Positions 21,687 to 63,324 of a DNA stretch of 64,000 bases are shown in pieces. Both the position numbers and the translations under genes were made by a program. This DNA comes from Candidatus Sulfopaludibacter sp. SbA3 (GTDB lineage: Bacteria > Pseudomonadota > Alphaproteobacteria > Caulobacterales > Hyphomonadaceae): contig CAMDAC010000003.1 in NCBI GenBank assembly GCA_945888325.1, forward strand, positions 1 through 64,000, in the 5' to 3' direction. The notes below the pieces were generated by a model. It was not told the origin of the DNA. It worked only from the letters and a program-made list of their open reading frames with translations, and searched no databases. The stretch's first letter is position 1; the number at the start of each line of letters is the position of its first letter.

Positions 21687-21720
21687 ATCGCGGGCTAGAG
21701 CTGCCGCGATAGCCCGCGAT
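21687..21720. repeat. Inverted repeat ATCGCGGGCT...AGCCCGCGAT, probable terminator / REP-like unit
   Basis: Perfect 10-bp arms, 14-nt spacer, 6 nt after the TonB receptor stop. Confidence 0.65.
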
Positions 21721-21738
21721 AACGCGCCGACACTGCGC

Positions 21739-21953
21739 GATAAAAAATGAGAATGAATGAGAAAGAATCGTCATTCCGTGTGCATGGATTGTATACGGAA
21801 TGACGCCCCTTGGAGAGGATTGGCGAGGGCCGGAGCCCGGACTTGCGCCTACAAAAACCACCCCGCCCAAAAAAAATCGATTCCCCTCAAGCCGCTATAA
21901 AATACGCACCCAATCCTTCCGCCACACCTCAGCCCACGGAGTTATACTCCGTG
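21739..21953 (-). repeat. Dispersed intergenic repeat copy A
   Basis: Reverse complement of the 33424-33630 type; ends with CACGGAGTTATACTCCGTG and starts GATAAAAAATGAGAATGAATGAGAAAGAATCG. Confidence 0.8.
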
Positions 21954-21982
21954 CCTGATCACATAAGAGTTTTCCCAAACAA

Positions 21983-22056
21983 TAGCCCCTAACCCCTCTA
22001 CCGCTTCGCGGGAGAGGAGAGGCCCACGACCGAAGGTCGTGGAAGGTGAGGGGCTA
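21983..22056. repeat. Three-way-junction palindromic element
   Basis: Outer stem TAGCCCCT/AGGGGCTA enclosing CTCTaCCGC-ttc-GCGGgAGAG and CCACGACC-gaa-GGTCGTGG. Confidence 0.75.
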
Positions 22057-22107
22057 TCCAGGCCCCCCGCCCTTGCCGCGCCCGGCCCCGCATGGCAAAT
22101 CGCGCGC

Positions 22108-22992
22108 ATGCCCGATACGCTTTCTCCCACCCCGAGCCTCTATGCCGGCGCCCCCGACTCCGTCAGCTTCAAGAAGCTGCGCAAACGCCTCGTGCGCGGC
22201 GCCCAGGAGGTCATCGACACCTACGGCCTGCTCGACCGGCGGGCCATCGACGCGGGCGAGAAACCCCGCCCGAAATGGCTGGTCTGCCTGTCCGGCGGCA
22301 AGGATTCCTACGGCCTCCTCGCCGTCCTCATGGATCTTCAGTGGCAGGGCGCCCTGCCGGTCGATCTGATCGCCTGCAATCTCGATCAGGGCCAGCCGGG
22401 CTTTCCCAAACACGTGCTGCCGGAATGGCTCGCCCGTGTCGGCGTGCCCCACCGGATCATCACCGAAGACACCTATTCCATCGTCACCGAAAAGGTTGAT
22501 GCCGGCCGCACCTATTGCTCGCTCTGCTCGCGCCTGCGCCGCGGCATCCTCTACCGCGTCGCCCGGGAGGAAGGTTGCGAGGCGATCGTGCTCGGCCACC
22601 ACCGGGACGACGCGCTCGAAACCTTCATGATGAACCTCGTCCACGGCGGCCGCCTCGCCGCGATGCCGCCGAAGCTTCTCAATGATGAAGGCGACGTGAT
22701 GGTCTTCCGTCCCCTGATCACTTCCGCCGAAGCAGACCTTGCAAAATTCGCCGAGGCGATGGCCTTTCCGATCATCCCCTGCAATCTCTGCGGCAGCCAG
22801 GACGGCCTGCAGCGCGTCGCCATGAAACACCTGCTCGACGAGTGGGAGCGAAAGAAGCCCGGTGTGCGTCAGACTATGGCCCGCGCCCTCGCCAATGTAC
22901 GCCCCAGCCACCTGCACGACGGCCGCGTCTTCGACTTCACCGCCCTCGGCCTCGGCGGCCGCGGCGAGGACGATCCGAACGTGCCGTTCTGA
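22108..22992 (+). CDS. ttcA: tRNA 2-thiocytidine(32) synthetase TtcA
   Basis: [40 protein letters not shown]; start reset to [10 protein letters not shown]. Confidence 0.95.
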
Positions 22993-32616: not shown

Positions 32617-33285
32617 TCAATCCTCCAGGGTCGGCTTGATCGCATCGATCGCGGGCTGGCGGGCGAGGATCTTGTTGCGCCAGTAGGCGCCGCTGGCGAT
32701 GGGCTTCAGGCGTTCGGCTTCGGCCATCGCGGCGGCGTGGACCTCGCCCGGCTCAACGACCTTGTCGAGCCAGCCGACGGGCACGGCTTCGTCCGGTGTG
32801 TAGAGGCGGGCCTGCACGAGGGCTTCGGTGAGGTACATCGGGTTGAGGCGGGCGCGCGGGAGCTCGACGCCGAAGCCGGGCAGCGTCATGCCGTTGATGG
32901 TTTCGTTGGCGCCGATCTTGTAGGCGCCGCGCGCGCCGATGCGGGTATCGGCGCCGAGCAGCAGGAAGGCGCCCATGGCGATGGCGTGGCCGGTGGCGGC
33001 GATGATGATCGGCTGTTTCGAGGTGAACAGGCGGAAGGCGAGCTTGCCGCCGCCATTGACGAGACGGCGCACGTCTTCCGGGTCCGAGGTGGCCAGGAAC
33101 TTCAGATCGAAGCCGGCGGAGAAGCGCTCGGGGCGGCCGGTGAGGATGATCACGCTGGCGGATTTTTCCGCCTCGTCGAGGGCGGCGTTGACGGCGTCCA
33201 GCATGGTCAGGCTGATGGCGTTGGCCTTGCCGTCATCCATGGTGATGAGGGCGATGTCGTTGTCGATCTTGAGGGTGGCGGTCAT
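32617..33285 (-). CDS. Enoyl-CoA hydratase/isomerase family protein
   Basis: MTATLKIDNDIALITMDDGKANAISLTMLDAVNAALDEAE...FSAGFDLKFL...; start reset, track ORF runs into repeat copy B. Confidence 0.92.
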   Translation of the reverse strand: MTATLKIDNDIALITMDDGKANAISLTMLDAVNAALDEAEKSASVIILTGRPERFSAGFDLKFLATSDPEDVRRLVNGGGKLAFRLFTSKQPIIIAATGHAIAMGAFLLLGADTRIGARGAYKIGANETINGMTLPGFGVELPRARLNPMYLTEALVQARLYTPDEAVPVGWLDKVVEPGEVHAAAMAEAERLKPIASGAYWRNKILARQPAIDAIKPTLED

Positions 33286-33423
33286 GGGGGCTCCTGCAGC
33301 TTGGGGCGATTTGGAGCGCGTGACATCGGGGAAAGCAAGGGCCCCCACCGCTTGCGTCGGGGGATCCATTGCGAAGGAATGGACGGTGAGGGTTTTGAGA
33401 TCGGGAAATTTTCTGGAGCCATG

Positions 33424-33630
33424 CACGGAGTATAACTCCGTGGGCGGAGGTGTAGCGCAAGGACGCGCCAAGCATCTTGCAAACGCTTGACGGGGATGGA
33501 GTTTATTTTTCGGGAGGGGTGGTTCTTTTAGGCGCAAGTTCCGTTTCCGGCGGCGGCCACTGGGCGTTATCGCGATGCAAACAGTGCATGTTTGCTATCG
33601 ATTTCCTCTCATCCATTCTCATTTTTTATC
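33424..33630 (+). repeat. Dispersed intergenic repeat copy B
   Basis: CACGGAGTATAACTCCGTGGGCGGAGGTGTAGCGCAAGG...GCTTGACGGGGATGG...GGCGCAAGT...GCAAACA-gtgca-TGTTTGC...CTCTCATCCATTCTCATTTTTTATC. Confidence 0.8.
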
Positions 33631-33649
33631 ATCTGGAGCCGGTTGGCTC

Positions 33650-34132
33650 TCATTCCTTCGCCAGAAATCCGCGTGCTGGATCTTCCCTCCGCTCCCGGAA
33701 GAAAGTGCGCAGCAGGTCTCCTGCCTCGACGGCGTTGGCGTCATCTTCTTCGACCTGTGGGCGCCAATGGCAGGTTTTCTGCTCGAAGAAGCGCGGGCCG
33801 TGGAGGATGGCGCCGCCCTTGGGGTCGCTCGCGGCGAAGATGACCTTGCCGATGCGGGCGAAGCTGATCGCGCCGGCGCACATCGCGCAGGGCTCCAGCG
33901 TGACGTAGAGGTGCAGGCCCGTGAGTCGGTAGTTGCCGAGCCTGGCCGCCGCCGAGCGCAGCGCGATGATCTCGGCATGGGCCGTGGGGTCGTGCGCCAT
34001 GACCGGCGCATTGGCGCCTTCGCCGACGATCTCGCCGGTGGCGGGGTCCACGATGACCGCGCCGACGGGCACCTCGCCCGCTGCGGCGGCGAGACGGGCG
34101 AGTTCGAGGGCGCGGGACATGGGGCTGGTCAT
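33650..34132 (-). CDS. tadA: tRNA-specific adenosine deaminase TadA
   Basis: AHAEIIALRSAAARLGNYRLTGLHLYVTLEPCAMCAGAISFARIGKVIFAASDPKGGAILHGPRFFEQKTCHWRP. Confidence 0.93.
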   Translation of the reverse strand: MTSPMSRALELARLAAAAGEVPVGAVIVDPATGEIVGEGANAPVMAHDPTAHAEIIALRSAAARLGNYRLTGLHLYVTLEPCAMCAGAISFARIGKVIFAASDPKGGAILHGPRFFEQKTCHWRPQVEEDDANAVEAGDLLRTFFRERREDPARGFLAKE

Positions 34133-62622: not shown

Positions 62623-62650
62623 GTCTGAAGCACTTTCTTCCTTGAATCCG

Positions 62651-62855
62651 GGGATTGTCGAGAGATCCGCGGGCGGAGGTGTTGCGCAAGGTTCGGGGGC
62701 GGATGGCGTAACAGCTTGACGGGGATGGGCTGTATTTTTCCAGAGCCGCGTTTCTTGTAGGCGCAAGTCCCCCCGCTGGGCTCACAGGTGGCCTCGTCCT
62801 GTTGCAGGCTTTGTATTCTCCGTGTCGATTCTCTCATTGATTCTCACTTTTTATC
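62651..62855 (+). repeat. Dispersed intergenic repeat copy C
   Basis: GGGCGGAGGTGTTGCGCAAGG...GCTTGACGGGGATGGGCTGTATTTTTC...TTGTAGGCGCAAGT...CGATTCTCTCATTGATTCTCACTTTTTATC. Confidence 0.75.
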
Positions 62856-63026
62856 ACTTGGTATCGATCCGGTATCACCTGGTATCACGTGAGCGTAGTT
62901 GAAGGACGAGCTGGGGCTTGCAGCAGCTCTGTTTGGCCCATCCTTCGACTTTGCTCAGGATGAGCTTGGGTCTGTGTTGCGGGCCAAGCACCCAAGGCTT
63001 TGAAGGGGTGCGAGCCTAGCACGAGC

Positions 63027-63143
63027 GCGAGTATAACCCCGGCGGCAGGAGTGTAGCGCAAGTTTTCCGGAGACATCTTCCAGGCGCTTGAGGCCCTTAC
63101 GGATTTTGTTTCGGGAGGGGGCGGGTTTGGTTGCATAGGCCGG
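63027..63143 (+). repeat. Dispersed intergenic repeat copy D (truncated)
   Basis: GAGTATAACCCCGGCGGCAGGAGTGTAGCGCAAG...GGCGCTTGAGG...TTTCGGGAGGGGGCGGGTTTGGTTGCATAGGC. Confidence 0.6.
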
Positions 63144-63324
63144 GGGTCAGCGTTTGCCCGGCCCAATCATGGCCAAAAGGTGGCGGCGCCTTGCCTGTAG
63201 GCGGGTTCTGCGCTAGATTGCCTTTTGCTCAGAGTGCGCAAAAGTAACCTCGCTGTCACGAACGAGCCCTGATTTCCGCGAGCGATCCTGGCTGGCCCTT
63301 GAATTGCGGATCATCAGGCCTAAC

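Follow-up and report, generated by a model that had tools for sequence, protein, structure and literature searches.

Four intergenic blocks in the window (the whole 64,000-nucleotide stretch analysed here) share one sequence of about 210 bases. The question raised by such a locus is where the repeat came from, how it spread, and whether it still has a role. The original prediction took it for an undescribed dispersed family, perhaps a non-autonomous mobile element of the MITE type, perhaps a structured RNA unit.

The repeat family and its distribution

The four loci, which the original prediction matched by eye, align along their lengths. A family profile, built from 28 copies with three of the window copies among them, finds exactly these four in the window, at 21739-21952 (-), 33425-33630 (+), 62657-62855 (+) and 63029-63141 (+), the last match covering only the first 118 of 208 profile positions. 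Further copies are present in the rest of the genome (G000, a Hyphomonas species; 3.28 Mb in 65 contigs). BLAST with copy B alone, a check that does not depend on the profile, returns 64 matches there, the best paralogues with E values of 1e-25 to 1e-13 and most copies with values of 1e-25 to 1e-7, and the profile returns 72 at E <= 1, about 41-42 of them full-length and about 25 limited to the left module. All copies in G000 are intergenic according to a re-trained gene caller.

Within a set of 42 Hyphomonas genomes, full-length copies occur in G000, G062, G065 and G011, with a single one in G014, and nine other genomes hold copies of the left module only. The exact repeat pattern, searched over 85,462 named species, matches in four genomes only: Hyphomonas RI_47, Hyphomonas Bin_23_5, Ga0077551 (which matches G062) and ERR2206763_bin.56 (which matches G011). 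The latter two (LNFC01, CALGEF01) are MAGs titled Acidobacteria, yet by kinship they are placed in the Hyphomonas genus of the window. The 150 genomes searched in the order, which cover 30 other genera, gave matches in Hyphomonas alone. Plasmid and phage records gave no match either, and an origin in them was rejected; Rfam gave none even at a relaxed threshold. The description of a dispersed, undescribed and non-autonomous element is borne out: there are some 42 full copies, all of them between genes, and insertions occur that are specific to a species, their sites being empty in relatives.

The sole copy in Hyphomonas Bin_23_5 (G014 C12:40492-40707; L084, L264) has flanks 99.8% and 95% identical to those in G062, two genomes that differ by about 17% elsewhere. 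Either horizontal transfer or bin contamination would account for these near-identical flanks.

Anatomy of the copies

Alignment of the copies separates two subfamilies, type 1 (copies A and B) and type 2 (copy C). A type 1 copy begins with a linker of about 40 nt (GAGGGTNTTG..GGGAAATTTTCTG..GATCAT), followed by a left module of about 130 nt (AGTATAACTCCGTG..GGAGGTGT..CTTGA..TTTTATTTTTC..TGTAGGCGCAAG), a variable, hairpin-bearing stretch and, last, an array of short boxes (Table 1). Type 2 lacks both the left hairpin and the -10 element, and usually a second left module (module B; copy D in the window) follows some 90-300 bp on, often with a hairpin GTCGGATTTCGGCC..GGCC..ATCCGAC between the two. 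Contrary to the common order of blocks described in the original prediction, copy C, a member of the second subfamily, has no CACGGAG..CTCCGTG hairpin. Copies C and D were both correctly located, but they are parts of one composite insertion of about 540 bp.

Table 1. Features of the repeat copies in the window and of the genes beside copy B
Feature	Position	Strand	Remarks
Copy A, type 1	21739..21957	-	after stop of TonB-receptor-like gene (ends 21680, +)
Phased box array, copy A	21707..21762	-	
Covarying hairpin, copy A	21769..21805	-	CGTCATTCCGTATACA-loop-TGCACACGGAATGACG
Enoyl-CoA-hydratase-like gene	32617..33285	-	start flanks copy B
Copy B, type 1	33380..33652	+	linker, left module, covarying hairpin and phased array; orthologues at same locus in G062, G011, G065
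Left module, copy B	33425..33545	+	reverse complement homologous to upstream region of small-protein gene in other Hyphomonas
-10-like hexamer TATACT, copy B	33429..33434	-	6 nt before former start codon (CAT 33420-33422 on +)
Covarying hairpin/palindrome region, copy B	33567..33600	+	covariation between type 1 copies
Phased T[AC]TC[AG] array, copy B	33607..33652	+	boxes at 33607, 33617, 33627, 33648; degenerate box at 33637
tadA-like gene	33650..34132	-	stop flanks copy B
Composite type 2 insertion	62624..63162	+	copy C, REP-like palindrome and module B (copy D); directly after stop codon of gene ending 62622
Copy C, module A of composite	62651..62856	+	no left hairpin or -10 element
Phased box array, copy C	62832..62888	+	
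Copy D, module B of composite	63029..63145	+	left module only; start codon lost
-10-like TATACT, copy D	63030..63035	-	

Repeats of another kind occur in the same regions. The palindromic repeat CATCCTTCGACTTTGCTCAGGATGAG at 62890-62975 is a separate, genus-wide REP-like family with dozens of matches in relatives. REP-like hairpins (CCCTCACCTCCC...GGGAGGTGAGGG) adjoin the left ends of many copies, for example at 21990-22080, and similar hairpins sit in some of the empty sites.

The array comprises six T[AC]TC[AG] boxes, at -24, -14, -4, +6, +17 and +27 from the end of TTTTTTATC. Successive boxes are 10 or 11 bp apart in 319 of 386 cases over four genomes (about 0.5 in shuffles), most of the remaining spacings are doubles of 20-21, and the extra box of some copies likewise adds one 10-bp step. 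CTCTCATCCATTCTCATTTTTTATC, proposed earlier as the terminal block, is not the end of the unit, since this array with its 10-11 bp phasing runs about 30 nt further; in copy B the last box overlaps the stop codon of tadA. The array pattern occurs 40 times in G000, 30 in G062, five in G065, six in G011 and once in G014, with no occurrence in the other 37 genomes, and a reversed control pattern has no match. Boxes so arranged would lie on one face of the helix, where a host protein may bind cooperatively. The phased array predicts an undescribed DNA-binding protein.

A multicopy small-protein gene as the probable parent

The left 130 nt or so of the repeat, read in reverse, shares homology with the sequence upstream of a small-protein gene that occurs in multiple copies. 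The reverse complement of the left module stands directly before the start codon of this gene, about 94-144 codons long, in nine other Hyphomonas species, a relationship to a promoter region that the original prediction had missed. The gene is present in 39 of the 42 Hyphomonas genomes at 1-16 copies each, and the three from which it is absent, G000, G062 and G011, are precisely those richest in the repeat. Among 289 genomes of the class, no copy of the gene turned up beyond Hyphomonas. With dN/dS values of 0.03-0.2 for the closest pairs (the median over all pairs, saturated ones included, is 0.35), the gene is under purifying selection. The 94-144-aa protein has no relatives at meaningful scores in Pfam, NCBIfam, PHROGs, PADLOC or the PDB sequences, and constitutes a genus-wide, multicopy, selected and previously undescribed family without a known relative. 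Several contigs end inside copies of the gene (G010 C94 and C222; G001 C322; G023 C39), which suggests near-identical recent copies that break assemblies.

The gene units share a recurrent 3' end, CCGGCCAGCC..GCTGCGTCCGGCC-N5-TGCTGCGC, for which neither the window nor the clade's fetched repeat loci gave a match. At the other side of the gene, a TATACT-like hexamer lies 6-7 nt before the ATG in 16 of 33 gene copies (strict pattern), a spacing that we take to be that of a leaderless promoter. TATAMT-N6-ATG is kept in 34 type 1 copies although no ORF follows; a conserved short ORF after the retained ATG was considered and rejected, since the linker lengths differ by non-multiples of three. The left module may still be a promoter of the leaderless type, in which TATACT, six bases upstream of what was the start codon, is the putative -10 element.

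Replacement of gene units at shared loci

Some type 1 copies sit at loci that hold intact gene units in other species. The locus of copy A is occupied by a gene unit in G021 (C20), whose two flanks match at 87% and 85%, and in G010 (C176), where the right flank matches. The locus of copy C2_98272 has a gene unit in G001, G010 and G022 with both flanks matching, and five further loci are shared with gene units on the evidence of one flank; the orthologue comparisons rest on MAGs that are 85-93% complete. In same-locus alignments the G000/G062/G011/G065 clade lacks the coding part, with a short linker in its place, and has gained about 95 nt upstream, made up of the covarying hairpin and the six-box array. 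At one gene-unit locus, in G001 and G010, the left flank of one of two G000 copies (C18:433 and C4:111873) is joined to the right flank of the other, as would result if the copies had recombined and so rearranged the chromosome.

A tree of the left modules has few supporting columns and a bootstrap that is not fully settled, and only its strongly supported splits are used here. All the clade's type 1 and type 2A modules form one group (99/93), which leaves out the outgroup modules, including those at the same loci. This grouping by clade, taken with the identity of the loci, implies that a single gene-less unit, specific to the clade, took the place of existing gene units. Type 2A falls within type 1 (98/95) and the module B copies are sister to gene-bearing modules; thus, the composite arose later, by the joining of two module lineages.

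The repeat is probably a dispersing gene-less promoter/operator element descended from the multicopy small-protein gene unit, although the presence of clade-specific modules at both ends of the same loci counts against this explanation. From the sequence arrangement one would expect transcripts to arise in the module, a protein to bind the array cooperatively, and some regulatory effect. Where gene order allows, the element would act as a portable promoter/operator reading into the neighbouring gene. This may be so for copies A and B, which lie in tandem settings with the retained putative promoter pointing into 22108-22992 and 32617-33285, respectively. Elsewhere it would make a short non-coding transcript. 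G000 carries no copy of the small-protein gene, so the element does not now depend on that protein.

A wider reading, to be held more tentatively, is that within one genus a multicopy coding unit has become a non-coding dispersed regulatory element. The gene would have been lost and its promoter kept, a cooperative operator array gained, old loci taken over and new ones reached by copying without transposon ends, which may have given the clade a portable regulatory network.

Constraint and gene context

Comparison of G000 with G062 provides a yardstick for selection on the repeat. Fourfold-degenerate sites are 84% identical between the two, the CTCCGTG..GGAGGTGT block 95% and the array 92-96%, and the intervening stretches 82-90%; some of the left module thus changes at close to the neutral rate. 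This pattern agrees either with selection acting on array and promoter-like block or with homogenisation, and is not proof of function.

The copies could instead be defunct relics of a small-gene family that was mobile in the past. They would now be drifting, no longer functional, and would share the array because they descend from one founder copy. Type 1 copies are indeed old and positionally stable: most hold the same position in G000 as in G062, with flanks 92-97% identical, and many do so in G065 and G011 as well. The middle parts change at the neutral rate, no ORF is left, and gene contexts are mostly convergent (22 of 40 neighbouring pairs in G000, with one divergent, by the re-trained gene caller), so that most copies cannot drive a neighbour. 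Mere drift is, however, hard to reconcile with the conservation of the GGAGGTGT block and array above fourfold sites, with the TATAMT-N6-ATG retained in the 34 type 1 copies, or with the recent insertion of the composite form in G000, and this explanation seems unlikely.

Movement and mobilisation

Composite type 2 copies are inserted at species-specific sites, some of them specific to G000. The composite in the window is a recent insertion, its site being empty in six relatives (G065, G011, G010, G018, G019 and G007), where the flanks are only about 9-44 bp apart. Short intergenic regions likewise stand at the places matching C15_49795, C5_56434, C1_195163 and C16_3361 in several relatives. 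The insertions begin directly at or near a stop codon.

These species-specific insertions of a unit of about 510-540 bp directly after stop codons, at sites empty in relatives, together with the strictly intergenic location of the copies, are what one would expect if a transposase from another locus acted in trans on a MITE-type element with cryptic ends. The ends of the repeat do not fit such an element. The mean best end-to-end score for terminal inverted repeats is 6.40, against 6.58 in shuffles, and the longest shared k-mer, as a measure of target-site duplication, is 6.07 against 5.91. No target duplication is visible at the empty sites, whose exact boundaries are uncertain. Mobilisation by a RAYT was rejected because the transposase does not track the repeat, with one Y1_Tnp match in G000 and none in G062, G065 or G011. 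No other transposase partner was found among those transposase families that were searched; the parent unit encodes the small protein instead. That protein is itself unlikely as the mobilising enzyme, because G000 has recent insertions yet not one copy of the gene.

Without terminal inverted repeats, target duplications or a tracking RAYT, there is no demonstrated MITE, and the original MITE-like assignment fails in the strict sense; movement in trans with cryptic ends is distinctly improbable. Mobility itself fared better, through the empty sites in relatives, although the target-site duplications sought with them did not appear. Given no transposase and no such ends, the case for a moving element rests on the empty sites and the distribution of the loci.

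Hairpins and RNA structure

The internal hairpin CACGGAG..CTCCGTG, put forward in the original prediction as a conserved structure, does not behave as a structured stem. The CTCCGTG arm is nearly invariant, the other arm drifts without compensation, and four of the seven positions are paired in only 14-19 of 26 distinct rows. A different hairpin, the second one (about 33567-33600 in copy B), does covary. Its cells are paired in 81.6% of cases (74.3% in shuffles), with 28 double-change cells (12 in shuffles) and a covariation score of 0.227 (0.128 in shuffles); none of 500 shuffles reaches the observed values, and slid versions of the hairpin score far lower. A palindromic DNA site and an RNA stem explain this covariation equally well.

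The suggestion of a structured RNA unit is accordingly left with one short covarying palindrome. That each copy encodes a structured non-coding RNA, as an sRNA or a cis-acting 3'-UTR element, is very improbable. The gene on the right usually runs up to the element with its 3' end (its strand is - in 33 of 40 G000 copies), making 3'-UTR processing or termination possible. Against such an RNA, the unit as a whole folds weakly and unremarkably (z-scores of -1.2 and -1.8 for the two strands) and has no compensated pair according to RNAalifold, the arms of the first-named hairpin show no covariation, Rfam holds no counterpart, and a covarying palindrome beside a phased array suits a DNA site equally.

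Comparison with known systems

A dispersing promoter/operator element of this origin resembles several known classes of repeat in part. The CIR elements are CcrM-associated intergenic repeats of Caulobacter and other alphaproteobacteria (Chen and Shapiro 2003, in PMC2229807), about 110 bp long, in which GANTC is conserved and two long arms form an inverted repeat (PMC2229807). Both they and the Hyphomonas repeat are dispersed, strictly intergenic sequences of 100-200 bp without an ORF, found in the same bacterial order. The Hyphomonas repeat is set apart from CIRs, by description, in having no long inverted-repeat arms. Among the 150 genomes of the order it has no match in other genera, and GANTC is present in 19 of 41 type 1 copies and 47 of 61 type 2 copies (66 of 102 overall). 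Membership of the CIR family is not supported, since GANTC is not conserved and the matches are limited to one genus.

Prokaryotic MITEs (reviewed in PMC10969869) are likewise small, non-autonomous and intergenic with species-specific insertions, but the Hyphomonas repeat has no terminal inverted repeats, no target duplication and no parent transposase that was found. REPINs, or REP sequences with their RAYT (PMC8049555), also form non-autonomous populations at the 3' ends of genes, whereas the unit here is about 210-540 bp, is not a REP pair and has no RAYT that tracks copy number. A further likeness to REPs is that REP-like palindromes adjoin many copies of the repeat and that one lies inside the composite.

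Putative mobile promoters are promoter-bearing intergenic blocks that have dispersed to different genes. The Hyphomonas repeat is similar in that an intergenic block with a putative promoter has spread to different genes; it differs in its descent from one particular multicopy gene and in its helically phased array. Where most bacterial intergenic repeats come from is obscure. Here the parent, a gene unit whose 3' end is recurrent, is visible in sister species alongside the intermediate and final forms, which makes it possible to study the change from a coding unit to a spreading non-coding repeat.
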